This document shows positions 2,537 to 37,697 of a stretch of 37,697 nt of DNA, piece by piece. The position numbers and the translations under genes are program-made. The stretch is from Ruminococcus sp. (GTDB lineage Bacteria > Bacillota > Clostridia > Oscillospirales > Ruminococcaceae), in assembly GCF_024692365.1 (NCBI RefSeq), contig NZ_JAILMR010000085.1, forward strand, positions 1 through 37,697. Reading direction: 5' to 3'. The notes under the pieces are model-generated. The model was not told where the DNA came from. It saw only the letters and a program-made list of their open reading frames with translations, and did not search any database. Every line of letters begins with the position of its first letter. Position 1 is the first letter of the stretch.

Positions 2537-2554
2537 AGCACAAACAAGGATAGT

Positions 2555-2870
2555 ATGCCAAGGAGAAGAGCTTTTGGTCAACCTTTTCGCGAAAAGGTTG
2601 CGAGGATGTTTGCACAGTCAACTCTGTTGACTGTTGGCGGAGTCCCTCAATCACCAAGGCGTAATACCAAAATGCAGAGCGAACTATAAAAGCGAAACGA
2701 ACTTCCGCAAAAAAAGCGCGGGCAACAACAAAAATCCGAGCGTGAGCAAATTTCTGCTTACGCTCTTTTTTGGGTGCGTAAACATATTGCCCGAGCTGAA
2801 ATCAAACGGCATCAGCTCGTTGATTTCTCGACCCGAACGGAGAGAGGGGCGACTTACACGCAGTACGTCC
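2555..2870 (+). repeat. Structured intergenic element, copy A-left (forward)
   Basis: First of four related copies in the window. Order of parts: ATGCCAAGG at the edge; a perfect 22-bp palindrome at 2579-2600; a hairpin with 8-bp arms ACAGTCAA/TTGACTGT just after; the block GGCGGAGTCCCTCAATCACC; one TACCAAA unit; an arm GCGCGGGCAA near 2717 with a partner TATTGCCCG near 2785; an internal hairpin with arms GAGCGTGAGCA/TGCTTACGCTC; a hairpin AAATCAA (2799-2805) / TTGATTT (2820-2826); then TCTCGACCCGA, AGAGGGGCGAC and the end CAGTACGTCC (2861-2870). No credible gene lies in it. It sits directly behind dnaJ. Confidence 0.8.
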
Positions 2871-2895
2871 GTTAAAAACAAGTACGTATTAACAT

Positions 2896-3248
2896 GGACG
2901 TACTGAGGATAGCACATTTATATCAAAGGGACTACGGTTGACAGGGTCGCCCCTCGTTCCTCGGGTCGAGAAATCGGATAACAGCGACTGCGTCGGCTGT
3001 GGCTTCGCTGTCCGATTTCGTACGCGGGCAATATTCACGCATACCAAATGATACGGTCGTATACTTTGGTACACGCTCGTATAATCTGGTATTGCCCGCG
3101 CATTTTTGGTATAAACACAGCTTTGTTTTTCTATTTATGGCGTTATTGCCACGTCGCTTTTGCGCCTTGACCGAGAGGCTCTGCCTCTCGAGCTCTCCGC
3201 AAGCCTGCTAGCGCGAGGCTTGACCGCGCGCTTTGTTTCGCGGCTTGG
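2896..3248 (-). repeat. Structured intergenic element, copy A-right (reverse)
   Basis: Inverted second copy, head-to-head with A-left. Its edge GGACGTACTG (2896-2905) is the exact reverse complement of the edge of A-left. Then come GGTCGCCCCT, GGTCGAGAAATCGG, the hairpin AAATCGG (2971-2977) / CCGATTT (3012-3018) enclosing GACTGCGTCGGCTGTGGC, the arm CGCGGGCAATA, a run of 10-bp units starting with TACCAAATGA at 3042, and the matching arm TATTGCCCGCG. The outer part has a perfect 8-bp hairpin CGAGAGGC (3172-3179) / GCCTCTCG (3183-3190) and arms CAAGCCT/AGGCTTG (3200-3222). Confidence 0.8.
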
Positions 3249-3341
3249 TTTTGTTATTGTCGCACTTTTTCTGCCGCGTCGTCACACCATGTTCCCAAAA
3301 CTTTTACATCTTTGATTCCCGTTTCTTTGGTATCCGCTATC

Positions 3342-16210: not shown

Positions 16211-16310
16211 GAGTTCATACGAAAGTATACCAACTTATACGAGTGGGTACCAAAGGATACGAATTTATACCAAACGATACGACCGTATACGAAATAGTAC
16301 GGTCGTATTT
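16211..16310 (+). repeat. 10-bp-phased TAC repeat array
   Basis: Nine TAC trinucleotides occur at exact 10-bp intervals (16218, 16228, and so on to 16298). The bases after them alternate as GA, CAA, GA, CAA, GA, CAA, GA, GA, GG. The basic unit is therefore 20 bp, close to TACCAAACGATACGACCGTA. The same unit occurs at 3042-3091, 16495-16600, 31810-31940 and, in frame, inside the gene at 22258-23256. Confidence 0.9.
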
Positions 16311-16365: not shown

Positions 16366-16680
16366 GACGTACTGCGGGGGAGGTCGCCCCTCTCTACGTT
16401 CGGGTCGAGAAATCGGTTAACAGCGACTGCGTCGGCTGTGGCTTACGCTGTCAGATTTCAGCGCGGGCAATATTTACGGACTTGGTTTGTGCGGGTGGTA
16501 TAGTTTGGTACACGCTCGTATCGTTTGGTATTGCCCGCGCATTATTAGCAGACGTTTGTTTCGCCTTGGTACTTTGTCGTACATTTTGGTATGCGCCTTG
16601 GTTATTGAGGGACTCCGCCCCTCAAACTCCTCGCAAGCTTTTCGCGAAAAGCTTGACCAAAAGCTCTTTTCTTTGGCATA
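16366..16680 (-). repeat. Structured intergenic element, copy B (reverse)
   Basis: Read left to right it gives the edge GACGTACTG, GGTCGCCCCT, GGTCGAGAAATCGG with hairpin arms 16410-16416 / 16452-16458 (one mismatch) around GACTGCGTCGGCTGTGGC, arms GCGCGGGCAATA / TATTGCCCGCGC enclosing 10-bp units, further units up to TTTTGGTATGCGCC, a hairpin TTGAGGG (16605-16611) / CCCTCAA (16619-16625), and a perfect 22-bp palindrome at 16634-16655, ending in TTTGGCAT. The open frames across it are not credible genes. It lies between the GGDEF terminator and the pyrE promoter. Confidence 0.8.
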
Positions 16681-22257: not shown

Positions 22258-23256
22258 TCACTTCTTATTCTTCTTACCCAGCTTCATCGTCCAGTTAATA
22301 ACAATGAAAAGCGCAACTATCAGTGTCACCAGGATTATCGCAAGTGCCGGGTTCAGCAGCCTTTTGTATTTGTCTTCGGTGGTCTCTTTTTTGTGGGTCT
22401 TGGTTTTATCGGATTTCTTGGCGTTTTTGTCTTCGGCGCGAATTACCTTTACCGTGTAGACATTTACTGTGCCGTCTTCGGCGGTGACTGTGGCGGTAAG
22501 GATATTCTCGCCGTAGTCCAGTTCTCCACCGCCGGATATCGTTACCGTATCGGAAAAAGCTGCCGCTGTTGCGTTGAGGTCGGCTGTTTCGCATGAACTG
22601 TCTGCATTGACGGTATACTCAAAAGTATCGTAGGAAAACTCTGGTGAGAGTTCACCTGCGGTGCAGGTCAGACCGATGAGGTAACCTTGTACCACGGGCT
22701 GGTCGTACTGAGGTTCTTCGGTGACAGTATCGGTATCAACGGGGGATTCTGATACGGTCGTATCGTTTGGTATACTTTCGTATGCGCTGGTATCGTTTGG
22801 TATTTCAGATTCATCGTTGGTATCGTTTGGTACATCTTCGCTTGCCGCCGCAACATGAACGCTTCCGCTTGAAGTTGGCTGTTCCAGAACAGTACCGTCG
22901 GTGGAGAAAACATATGCGTTGGTAAGGGTGATACTGCTGTCGCCCTCACCGATTGCATTGAAAGTCAGAGAGCAGTCAAGAACACCATTGTTCTCGGCAG
23001 GGAAGCTGTTGATGGTGATAAGTCCGCCGCCGCCCCATGCGTCGCCGCCAACAAATTCTATCACGCTGTCATCGTATTCCAGTGATGAATTCAGGTAACC
23101 TATGTCGCTGTCGGATTCTATCCTTATGTTAACGGTGAAAGTTTCGCCCACTGCTGGGCTGCCGCTGACTGTTATGGTGTCGGTGGTATCTGCAAAAGCT
23201 GTCAGCTGCACTGCAGCCGCGGCAGCGATCGCCAGACCGAAAGTTGATATCTTCAT
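22258..23256 (-). CDS. Membrane-anchored cohesin-like surface protein
   Basis: A 332-residue exported protein. Signal peptide 1-22 (cleavage after AFA); a cohesin-like beta domain at about 24-135 (SPAVGETFTVNIRIESDSD, then LEYDDSVIEFVGG); a Ser/Thr/Asp-rich linker at 136-185; a cadherin-like beta-sandwich at about 190-275; a Lys-rich stretch; one membrane helix at about 303-323 and a basic tail, so it is held at the membrane with domains outside. Cohesins bind dockerins of secreted enzymes in cellulosomal ruminococci; whether this one does is inference. The linker holds three decapeptide repeats starting at residues 142, 152 and 162 with core (I/V)PNDT, coded by the intergenic repeat unit. 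AAGGAGA precedes the ATG. Confidence 0.8.
   Translation of the reverse strand: MKISTFGLAIAAAAAVQLTAFADTTDTITVSGSPAVGETFTVNIRIESDSDIGYLNSSLEYDDSVIEFVGGDAWGGGGLITINSFPAENNGVLDCSLTFNAIGEGDSSITLTNAYVFSTDGTVLEQPTSSGSVHVAAASEDVPNDTNDESEIPNDTSAYESIPNDTTVSESPVDTDTVTEEPQYDQPVVQGYLIGLTCTAGELSPEFSYDTFEYTVNADSSCETADLNATAAAFSDTVTISGGGELDYGENILTATVTAEDGTVNVYTVKVIRAEDKNAKKSDKTKTHKKETTEDKYKRLLNPALAIILVTLIVALFIVINWTMKLGKKNKK
22760..22832 (-). repeat. Phased repeat inside the cohesin-like gene
   Basis: On the plus strand GTA occurs at 22760, 22770, 22780, 22790, 22800, 22820 and 22830, the same 10-bp register as the intergenic arrays, with TCGTTTGGTA repeated three times. Read on the coding strand it gives ACCAAACGATAC units every 30 bp. 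It fills the linker and keeps the frame. Confidence 0.9.
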
Positions 23257-30903: not shown

Positions 30904-31655
30904 GCAATTTCGATGCAAAAAAAGTCAAGGAAGACATCATCAGATGGATAAGAGAATATTTTGAGGCGAACGCAACTCCCACCACAAATGCAGTTATCGG
31001 CATTTCTGGCGGCAAGGACAGTTCAGTTGCTGCGGCGCTCTGCGTTGAAGCGCTGGGCAAGGACAGAGTTATCGGCGTGCTGATGCCCCAGGGCGAGCAG
31101 TTCGATATTGATTGCAGCAAAAAGCTGGTGGCACATCTTGGCATCAAGAGCTACGAGATAAACGTTGGCATCACAGTTTCCGCTCTGCTGGGCGAACTTG
31201 GCAGCAAGCTGGAAGTTGCCGAGCAGGCAAGGGTGAACACTCCTCCGAGAATCAGAATGACTACCCTTTACGCTGTTGCAGCTTGCGTCGGCGGACGTGT
31301 AGTGAACACCTGCAATATGTCTGAGGACTGGGTTGGCTATTCTACCAAATTCGGTGATGCCGCAGGCGATTTCAGCCCACTTTCCGAACTCTGCGTTCGT
31401 GAGGTTATCGCAGTGGGCGACGAACTGGGTCTGCCTTATGAGCTGACTCACAAAACTCCTATCGATGGTCTTTGCGGAAAGACTGACGAGGACAATCTGG
31501 GATTCACCTATGCTGAGCTTGACAGCTATATCCGTAATGAAACAGACCTCTCCGATAAGCCCGAGCTGAAAGCCCGCATTGATGGTATGCACGCGAGAAA
31601 TCTGCATAAGCTTCTGCCAATGCCTAAATTTGAATTCACAATTCACAATTCATAA
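30900..31655 (+). CDS. nadE: NAD synthase, ammonia-dependent type
   Basis: Last step of NAD synthesis: amidates nicotinate adenine dinucleotide using ATP and ammonia. The product has 251 residues. The PP-loop ISGGKDSS (35-42) is present, as are RIRMTTLYAVAA, NTCNMSEDWVGYSTKFGD and the C-terminal PIDGLCGKTDEDNLGFTY. There is no glutaminase domain, so ammonia must be supplied directly or by a partner. It overlaps the NADAR gene by ATGA. The last residues (EFTIHNS) are coded by a tandem heptamer repeat that continues past the stop, so the C-terminus has probably been altered by a repeat. Confidence 0.96.
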   Translation: MSNFDAKKVKEDIIRWIREYFEANATPTTNAVIGISGGKDSSVAAALCVEALGKDRVIGVLMPQGEQFDIDCSKKLVAHLGIKSYEINVGITVSALLGELGSKLEVAEQARVNTPPRIRMTTLYAVAACVGGRVVNTCNMSEDWVGYSTKFGDAAGDFSPLSELCVREVIAVGDELGLPYELTHKTPIDGLCGKTDEDNLGFTYAELDSYIRNETDLSDKPELKARIDGMHARNLHKLLPMPKFEFTIHNS

Positions 31656-31661
31656 TTCATA
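31634..31661 (+). repeat. Tandem heptamer repeat over the nadE stop codon
   Basis: Four 7-bp units: ATTCACA twice, then ATTCATA twice, followed by ATTG. The nadE stop TAA (31653-31655) lies in the third and fourth units. A change in copy number would alter the C-terminus of NadE. Confidence 0.8.
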
Positions 31662-31701
31662 ATTGTTGGCAGGGCGGAATCGTAGCTGTACTTAGATAAG
31701 A

Positions 31702-32097
31702 ATGCCAAGGAAAAGAGCTTTAGGTCAAGCTTTTCGCGAAAGGCTTGCGAGGATGTTTGCACAGTCAGCAAGCTGACTGTTGGCGGAGTCCCTCAATCAC
31801 CAAGGCGTATACCAAAATGTACGGCAAATTACCAAAGCGAATAAACGCATACCAAAAAATGCGCCGGTACGCTGCCGACGCAGTCGCAGCTACCAAACGA
31901 TACGAGCGTGTACCAAACTATACGACCGTATCATTTGGTATGCGTAAACATTACCCGCGCATGAAATCGGACAGCGTAAGCCACAGCCGACGCAGTCGCT
32001 GTTAACCGATTTCTCGACCCGAGGGCGCTGCCGACGCAGTCGCAGCTGAGGGGCGACATACCCCGCAGTTCTTCTAAAGCAGTTCTTCTAAATAAGA
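31702..32097 (+). repeat. Structured intergenic element, copy C (forward)
   Basis: ATGCCAAGG edge (31702); a 22-bp palindrome with one mismatched pair at 31726-31747; a hairpin ACAGTCAG/CTGACTGT; GGCGGAGTCCCTCAATCACC; phased units TACCAAA at 31810, 31830, 31850, 31891 and 31911 with TACG units between; arms ATGCGCCGG / CCCGCGCAT; hairpin AAATCGG (31964-31970) / CCGATTT (32006-32012); TCTCGACCCGA; and the tandem 14-mer GCAGTTCTTCTAAA at the end. A 20-bp bulged hairpin sequence GCTGCCGACGCAGTCGCAGC occurs twice in this copy. Confidence 0.8.
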
Positions 32098-32112
32098 AAG
32101 CATAAACAAAAC

Positions 32113-36537: not shown

Positions 36538-36743
36538 TGAGTGATATTGAATTTAATCTGTCACTGAGACCATTAAATCGTGCTTACAGAGATATATTCC
36601 ACGAAATACCTTGTATTCAAAATTATTCATGTACTCGTGATGAATACGTTGCAGCTTTGAAAAAATCGATAGAAACAGGTAAACCTATCGATACATACTT
36701 GGTAAAAGCCGTAATGCCACAGAACAAAGATGTTCTGATATGA
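36537..36743 (+). CDS. Small unrecognised protein, 68 residues
   Basis: Starts MSDIEFNLSLRPLNRAYRDI. Its start codon shares one base with the previous stop, giving strong coupling, and GGAGGG lies 7 nt before it. No motif is recognised. Its last codons and stop (GTTCTGATATGA, 36732-36743) are the left edge of the 541-bp tandem duplication, so the C-terminus may have been reshaped by that event. Confidence 0.6.
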   Translation: MSDIEFNLSLRPLNRAYRDIFHEIPCIQNYSCTRDEYVAALKKSIETGKPIDTYLVKAVMPQNKDVLI

Positions 36744-36809
36744 TCCATATTTAGCGGCAGATATGCCTTTATAATGTGTATATCTCAAATAATGAAAGGA
36801 GAAGGTTAA

Positions 36810-37295
36810 GTGAACAGCGAATTTAAAAATGAAACAAGCTTTCGCCCTGATGTGTTATCGTTGGAATACGTAAAAGAACATGGAGTTTTGTATTCGGATG
36901 ATGTTTTTTATTTGGATGACTTTAAATCATGTGTATTGTTTGATAAAGATCCAAAACTTGGCGGAAAACCATTTACGGGACTTTTGTATGAACTTGATGA
37001 CAATGGAATTCTTCGGTATTATAAGTATTATATCGAAGGTTTTGAAGATGGAGAATATGTTGAGTTTTATGATTCCGGTGCAGTTGCTTCATACTGTATT
37101 AAGAAATACGGAGCCTTTGCTGATAAATTGTATGAATGGCACAGAAACGGCAAACTAAAATGCTTTGAAGAGGTAGATAAAGATAGAAGACATTTAATAA
37201 CTATTAGGTTTGACGACGCCGGGAATATTATTTTCCTTATGGAAAAAGGAGAGATAAAGATAGACAAAAGAAGTTCTGATATGAAAAATACTTAG
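36810..37295 (+). CDS. YwqK-like (MORN-type repeat) protein, copy 1
   Basis: A 161-residue protein with short beta-strand repeats of the MORN/YwqK type: PFTGLLYELDDNGILRYYKYYIEGFEDGEYVEFYDSG is the centre (given in parts: GLLYELDDNG, GFEDGEYVEFYDSG, KLYEWHRNGKL). Proteins of this type are often immunity or antitoxin partners of secreted toxins; this is inference. Start GTG 36810 with AAAGGAG and GAAGG upstream. The stop TAG is the first part of the next repeat unit, so the last residues (RSSDMKNT) may derive from the duplication junction. Confidence 0.6.
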   Translation: MNSEFKNETSFRPDVLSLEYVKEHGVLYSDDVFYLDDFKSCVLFDKDPKLGGKPFTGLLYELDDNGILRYYKYYIEGFEDGEYVEFYDSGAVASYCIKKYGAFADKLYEWHRNGKLKCFEEVDKDRRHLITIRFDDAGNIIFLMEKGEIKIDKRSSDMKNT

Positions 37296-37350
37296 CGGCA
37301 GATATGCCTTTATAATGTGTATATCTCAAATAATGAAAGGAGAAGGTTAA

Positions 37351-37697
37351 GTGAACAGCGAATTTAAAGATGAAACAAGCTTTCGTCCTGAGGTTTTATC
37401 GTTGGAATACGTAAAAGAACATGGAGTTTTGTATTTGGATGATGTTTTTTATTTGGATGACTTTAAATCCTGTGTATTGTTTGATAAAGATCCAAAACTT
37501 GGCGGAAAACCATTTACGGGACTTTTGTATGAACTTTATAACAATGGAATGCCTCGGTATTATCAGTATTATATCGAAGGCTTTGAAGATGGAGAATATG
37601 TTGAGTTTTATGATTCCGGTGCAATTGCTTCATACTGTATTAAGAAATACGGAGCCTTTGTTGATAAAGTGTATGAATGGCACAGAAACGGCAAACT
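37351..37697 (+). CDS. YwqK-like protein, copy 2 (cut at window edge)
   Basis: Second copy of the duplicated gene, starting at GTG 37351 with the same leader; 115 codons are visible. Comparison with copy 1 gives 15 base differences, of which 11 change the amino acid (for example N7D, D14E, S29L, D63Y, D64N, I67M, L68P, K72Q). Three or four of these cluster in the loop at residues 63-68. The 3' end is outside the window. The likely role is as for copy 1. Confidence 0.6.
   Translation, partial: MNSEFKDETSFRPEVLSLEYVKEHGVLYLDDVFYLDDFKSCVLFDKDPKLGGKPFTGLLYELYNNGMPRYYQYYIEGFEDGEYVEFYDSGAIASYCIKKYGAFVDKVYEWHRNGK

Follow-up and report, generated by a model that had tools for sequence, protein, structure and literature searches.

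We give an even chance to the reading that the repeats described here form a genus-level family of dispersed non-coding DNA, in which ordered hairpin modules occur singly or as an inverted pair, and that this family is a REP/BIME-like palindrome mosaic that is maintained in the form of DNA hairpins and from which long perfect palindromes are filtered out. Across the copies, the stems were kept paired through changes on both sides. Moreover, in inverted pairs the central modules (E stem and F loop) differed between the two arms, while the outer modules A and B were paired at random.

Structure of the units in the window

The window is the whole analyzed stretch of 37,697 nucleotides from Ruminococcus sp., and its genome (G000) is a draft of 3.68 Mb in 140 contigs. 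Each unit was ordered as hairpin A, hairpin B, a spacer, stem C around module D, hairpin E, core F, and a tail. Module D consisted of TACCAAA/ATACG repeats or of another hairpin, as in the left arm of the two-armed window element, where stem C encloses not D repeats but a hairpin at 2738-2765. Core F had the form TCGACCCG...GGGGCGAC, and the tail often started near CGCAGTACGTC. The units were found singly or in pairs of arms that face inward, the two F cores of a pair being 78 to 156 bases apart, and the window element carried a 10-bp inverted repeat at its centre (Table 1).

The sequence-only reading had counted four copies in the window. The repeats were real, but 2555-2870 and 2896-3248, taken for separate copies, were the inward-facing arms of one element (2552-3260), which was accompanied by two single units. 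The stem variants quoted in that reading were present in the sequence, namely, CAACC/GGTTG at 2579-2600 versus CAAGC/GCTTG at 16634-16655 and, including one T-G pair, at 31726-31747, ACAGTCAA/TTGACTGT at 2614-2634 versus ACAGTCAG/CTGACTGT at 31761-31780, and AAATCAA/TTGATTT at 2798-2827 versus AAATCGG/CCGATTT at 2970-3019 and 31963-32013. In the case of the minus-strand unit at 16366, the B hairpin differed from the other copies, and the E stem contained one mismatch region, with GAAATC/GATTTC only.

Table 1. Positions of the units and their modules in the window
Feature	Position	Strand	Basis or details
Two-armed element, two inward-facing units	2552..3260	.	Outer limits approximate
Hairpin A, left arm of two-armed element	2579..2600	+	Sequence
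Hairpin B, left arm of two-armed element	2614..2634	+	Sequence
Stem C, left arm (CGGGCAA 2719-2725 / TTGCCCG 2787-2793)	2719..2793	+	Sequence
Hairpin E, left arm (GAAATCAA stem)	2798..2827	+	
F core, left arm	2828..2853	+	Pattern match
Central inverted repeat, 2861-2870 / 2896-2905	2861..2905	.	Sequence
F core, right arm	2946..2969	-	Pattern match
Hairpin E, right arm, long-loop form (GAAATCGGA stem)	2970..3019	-	
Stem C, right arm, around D repeats (TACCAAA/ATACG)	3024..3101	-	
Hairpin B, right arm (CGAGAGGC type)	3172..3190	-	
Hairpin A, right arm (CAAGCC...GGCTTG type)	3200..3222	-	
Array of D-like repeats, each ~20 bp, separate	16216..16310	.	
Single unit	16366..16680	-	F 16383-16408, E 16409-16459, B 16605-16625, A 16634-16655
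Single unit	31699..32080	+	A 31726-31747, B 31761-31780, D 31891-31944, E 31963-32013, F 32014-32057

Several further features were observed around the units. By eye, single units often had AATTCATAATTCATAATTGTTGGCAGGG...GTAGCTGTACTTAGGATAG directly outside module A (for example, 31640-31700 in the window), and this flank was mostly absent from inverted pairs. Also by eye, the base after GAGCTTT in the outer motif of module A was mostly T beside the AAGCTTTT stem and mostly G beside the AAGCCTTT stem. D-like repeats (...IPNDTSAYESIPNDT...) were located within a coding frame as well, at 22747-22845 in the minus-strand gene 22258-23256. Because the one close orthologue used, L297 of G027 (L298, L299, and L301 were set aside), has equal length there, these repeats are likely, from the sequence comparison, not an insertion. 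Apart from the units, 36721-37020 and 37262-37561 were two tandem copies of a gene that match at 94% across 300 bases.

Extent and distribution of the family

In the genome of the window, 73 matches to one unit were obtained, which is a lower bound with 40 of 136 candidates scored. Units were matched in 9 of 61 genomes (G000 and 60 relatives), namely, G000, seven of the 28 others of the genus, and one genome of another family, where the match of 24 bases was regarded as chance. On these matches, the family does not appear credibly outside the genus. The F-core pattern was found in 6 of the 29 genus genomes. In total, 139 distinct units were parsed (74 in G000, 29 in G005, 25 in G027, 6 in G022, 3 in G014, and 2 in G017), and a similar script gave 150 units over a larger set of loci. 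Wherever the neighbours could be called, the units sat between open frames. Searches of plasmids with 31699-32100 and of phages with 2552-3260 gave no match, and viral contigs contained 0 matches to either of two exact patterns, 27 and 26 bases long. No description of the unit family was found in the open-access literature, most subscription papers being outside the scope of this search.

Paired changes in the stems

The proportion of paired cells was determined for distinct hairpins and compared with 500 shuffles. The observed values were 98.6% for E (48 rows; shuffled mean 84.4%), 98.2% for B (19 rows; 70.6%), and 97.6% for A (14 rows; 91.5%), although these percentages are inflated by the choice of rows for hairpin formation. 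The covariation scores were 0.443 versus 0.164 shuffled for E, 0.740 versus 0.215 for B, and 0.237 versus 0.106 for A. In both measures, 0 of 500 shuffles reached the observed value for any of the three hairpins, and since the unit copies are related, the shuffle figures overstate independence. Changes on both sides were found at 5 of 12 pairs in E (102 such cells versus a shuffled mean of 33.0), 7 of 9 in B (43 versus 12.1), and 3 of 9 in A (9 versus 2.8). When the partner was slid by one to three columns, 20.7 to 75.9% of cells remained paired. Not every measure exceeded the shuffles. For E, neither the count of pairs with changes on both sides (5 versus 4.9) nor that of further pair types (13 versus 14.4) was above them, and for B the corresponding values were 7 versus 5.8 and 15 versus 12.5, with 73 and 46 of 500 shuffles as high, respectively.

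The E stem was 6 bp or longer in 131 of the 139 parsed units. The main E stems were GAAATCGGA, GCCGTCAAA, GTCATCGGA, GCTGTCAAA, and GAAATCAACG, among which several pairs differ at once. Chimeric E hairpins were also seen, in the right arm of L025 and in L026, with the 5' stem of one type, the 3' stem of another, and the loop the same. The sequence-only reading had proposed a covariation check over many genomic copies, with independent variation of stem positions as the outcome that would count against it; over these copies the stems instead stayed paired above shuffles.

Unlike arms in inverted pairs

The E stem was found in both arms of 30 of the 33 inverted pairs, and none of these 30 had the same E stem in both arms, versus 8.7 expected when arms were shuffled within genomes; 0 of 20000 arm shuffles gave zero like pairs. 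Similarly, the F loops were alike in 0 of 33 pairs versus 4.2 expected, and 0.7% of shuffles were as low. The exact figures are weakened by the kinship of the copies. The outer modules were at chance level: among the pairs in which the module was parsed in each arm, A was alike in 5 of 19 (versus 5.6 to 6.5 expected) and B in 3 of 17 (versus 2.4 to 2.9). The F stems, which are closest to the centre, were identical between arms.

Inverted pairs with like centres would form a long palindrome, which may be cut or deleted, so that such pairs would be lost. As the two arms share their F stems, a palindrome filter of this kind would have to act on the total paired length; the shared F stems and the 10-bp inverted repeat at the centre of the window element count against it. 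In most REP families, unlike inverted pairs are likewise reported to be preferred, 'with no obvious explanation', and protection from SbcCD is suggested in the same paper (PMC3733652). A homologue of SbcD was found in the genome of the window (E 5.4e-46). The element has a built-in control, with central modules always unlike and distal modules random, and this makes the idea of palindrome stability directly testable.

DNA hairpins or RNA

G-U pairs are tolerated in RNA stems. In the unit stems (81 A, 95 B, and 131 E hairpins), G-T accounted for 19 of 2710 cells (0.7%), a share somewhat lowered by the hairpin finder, which penalises G-T, and A-C for 9; these counts are too few to infer the strand. 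In the acceptor and T stems of tRNAs from the same genome, 33 of 336 cells (9.8%) were G-T and 8 were A-C, this control comprising 30 tRNA loci and the 28 of 35 tRNAs that passed an acceptor-stem filter. The G-T share differed between the two sets of stems (Fisher p 6e-20, with cells that are not independent). Because G-T is this rare, and because the two-armed build places the same hairpins on opposite strands, the structure is more likely maintained at the level of DNA hairpins than of an RNA. Accordingly, covariation alone can suggest RNA where the kept structure is more likely DNA.

Of 106 short E hairpins, 103 had a GNA or GNNA loop when read along the unit strand, and 0 had the reversed form. 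In another E set, with ties broken towards G..A, 108 of 115 were GNA/GNNA, and the 43 tetraloops comprised 35 GNYA and 8 GNRA, while the F tetraloops (n=51) comprised 37 GNRA and 14 GNYA. Among DNA hairpins, d(GCGAAGC) and d(cGNNAg) stand out for their stability. The E and F loop types do not decide between DNA and RNA.

Insertion and spread

Units were absent at the dnaJ and pyrE sites of two close relatives, G005 and G027, the only genomes in which the same neighbours were seen kept. The distance between dnaJ and a motif near the start of the following gene was 180 bases in G005 and 181 in G027 versus 871 in the window, and the gap between a GGDEF gene and pyrE was 102 and 101 bases versus 587 by the open frames of the window. 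When 9 genomes were searched, no A or F motif was found within 1000 bases after dnaJ in the 8 loci examined, or within 700 bases before pyrE in 7 of the 9. For 55 arms of the window's genome, the best match (at least 150 bases) had a median identity of 86.6%, and the highest identity, 94.8% over 155 bases, was between two arms of one element. As no near-identical long copies were present among these arms, no recent burst or movement was seen.

Spread of the units may depend on a trans-acting enzyme that would read the hairpin on one strand, by analogy with REP/BIME. The way in which REP transposases recognise hairpins in single-stranded DNA, together with bulges and tags (PMC8266576), served as the model for the enzyme. 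No mobilising gene was found for the units, and clustering of the ORFs around them gave no transposase common to many units; the clusters with the most loci (43 and 41) resembled frames read through the element. A narrower proposal, which we offer tentatively and hold to be doubtful, is a REP-like system without a Y1 transposase, in which an enzyme would act on single-stranded DNA by reading the E hairpin with its GNA/GNNA cap, and the two E hairpins of every inverted pair would have to differ so that each folds alone.

A recombinase ORF cluster was considered as the mobiliser and rejected, since it belongs to a mobile element inserted into units. In G027, an element of 8.6 kb lay inside module A (L334 397-8979), splitting GCCAAGGA...GAGCTTT from TGGTCAAGC, and it encoded a large serine recombinase of 543 residues together with ABC transporter proteins and a protein resembling a relaxase (identified by eye). 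In G022, such junctions were 16.4 kb apart (L335 408-16846). Eight further left junctions were located in L336-L343 (six in G027 and two in G005) and five right junctions in all (L051, L055, L210, L217, and L236). The left ends shared about 80 bases and then diverged. Module A seems to serve as an attachment site for a large-serine-recombinase element.

Alternative explanations

The unlike arms could merely go back to a single ancestral pair whose arms already differed. The copies are related, some arm features last in relatives (GGGGCGAA versus GGGGCGAC ends), and linkage could be scrambled by inversion of the centre. However, in the window's genome, the E type was unlinked to the tail type (GCCGTCAAA 9 and 6, GAAATCGGA 9 and 6), with a crude tail label that gave both arms one label in 10 of 33 pairs. 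In the relatives, it was close to unlinked to the F end (7 and 5 versus 5 and 11), and the partner graph was not bipartite. Since the E type is unlinked to the arm tail and the graph is not bipartite, two fixed ancestral arm types are no explanation, and descent of this kind is considered distinctly unlikely. In the case of the paired changes, template switching between hairpin arms could make and mend them in the absence of selection. The sequence-only reading had taken these changes as selection for structure, in RNA or DNA; that the structure is maintained stands, but template switching could also give paired changes. Such a process is reported (PMC8794818, PMC8604942), and it fits the stem changes that come in blocks, the chimeric stems of L025 and L026, and the G-T pairs that are not favoured in stems. 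It should, however, also invert the loops, and none of the 106 short E loops was inverted, while switching between paired arms should make the arms alike, as in none of the 30 pairs. Template switching is therefore judged unlikely.

That the units are a structured RNA under selection, as a non-coding RNA or UTR element, would account for the covariation in the stems and is consistent with the predicted folding. The RNA fold of the whole element was better than shuffles (z -9.8, 20 shuffles) and paired its two arms around the F cores, and a single unit gave z -2.9 for RNA of the other strand and z -4.1 for DNA folding. Moreover, 27 single units ran along tandem genes and 11 against them, which mildly fits a transcript; with longest-ORF calls, 24 of the 62 with callable neighbours lay between convergent or divergent genes. 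The predominance of GNRA in the F loops is also what RNA would favour. Against this stand the scarcity of G-T relative to tRNA stems, the same hairpins on both strands of inverted pairs, and 0 Rfam matches above gathering score in the window, on which an RNA family was rejected; a structured RNA is thus quite improbable. That the units are a genuine REP family, mobilised by a Y1 transposase of the RAYT/IS200 type, would agree with the copy number, the intergenic sites, the inverted unlike pairs, and the unpaired bases of the E stem. However, a GTAG tag was found within 12 bases on either side of 0 of 119 A, 0 of 101 B, and 0 of 131 E hairpins. CGTC was found within 12 bases of 3 of 119 A (5' side), 0 of 101 B, and, for E, 3 of 131 (5') and 7 of 131 (3'), and within the first 25 tail bases of 34 of 139 units; the unit hairpins do not carry the tag of the REP CGTC super-family. 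Among the genus genomes, some of them incomplete, PF01797 was present in 5 of the 8 with the element and in 11 of the 21 others, and the 8 Y1 loci fetched had no element match, so that a Y1 partner was rejected for want of co-distribution. Because the units fail on both tag and transposase, the family was not filed as REP, and a true REP family is considered very improbable.

Comparison with known systems

Bacterial MITEs share with the present units that they are non-coding, dispersed, and missing at some sites in relatives, but the single units have differing ends, so that no terminal inverted repeat common to them could be made out, and the empty sites at dnaJ and pyrE were too diverged to show target duplication. 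BOX-type mosaic repeats are also ordered modules between genes; their modules appear to be others, and inverted pairing with unlike centres, as in the present family, is not known from them. The REP unit is one hairpin of 20-40 bp, whereas the present units are about 300-400 bp with several hairpins, carry no GTAG tag, and have no linked Y1 transposase found. In the main text of PMC3733652, Firmicutes, Ruminococc, and Clostrid have 0 occurrences. As described for REP/BIME in that text, the units are intergenic and present in many copies, their hairpin stems change, and their inverted pairs are often unlike. The 33 inverted pairs had arms of opposite orientation, with unlike E stems in 30 of 30. 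The element therefore works like a BIME, with inverted, unlike DNA palindromes between genes.
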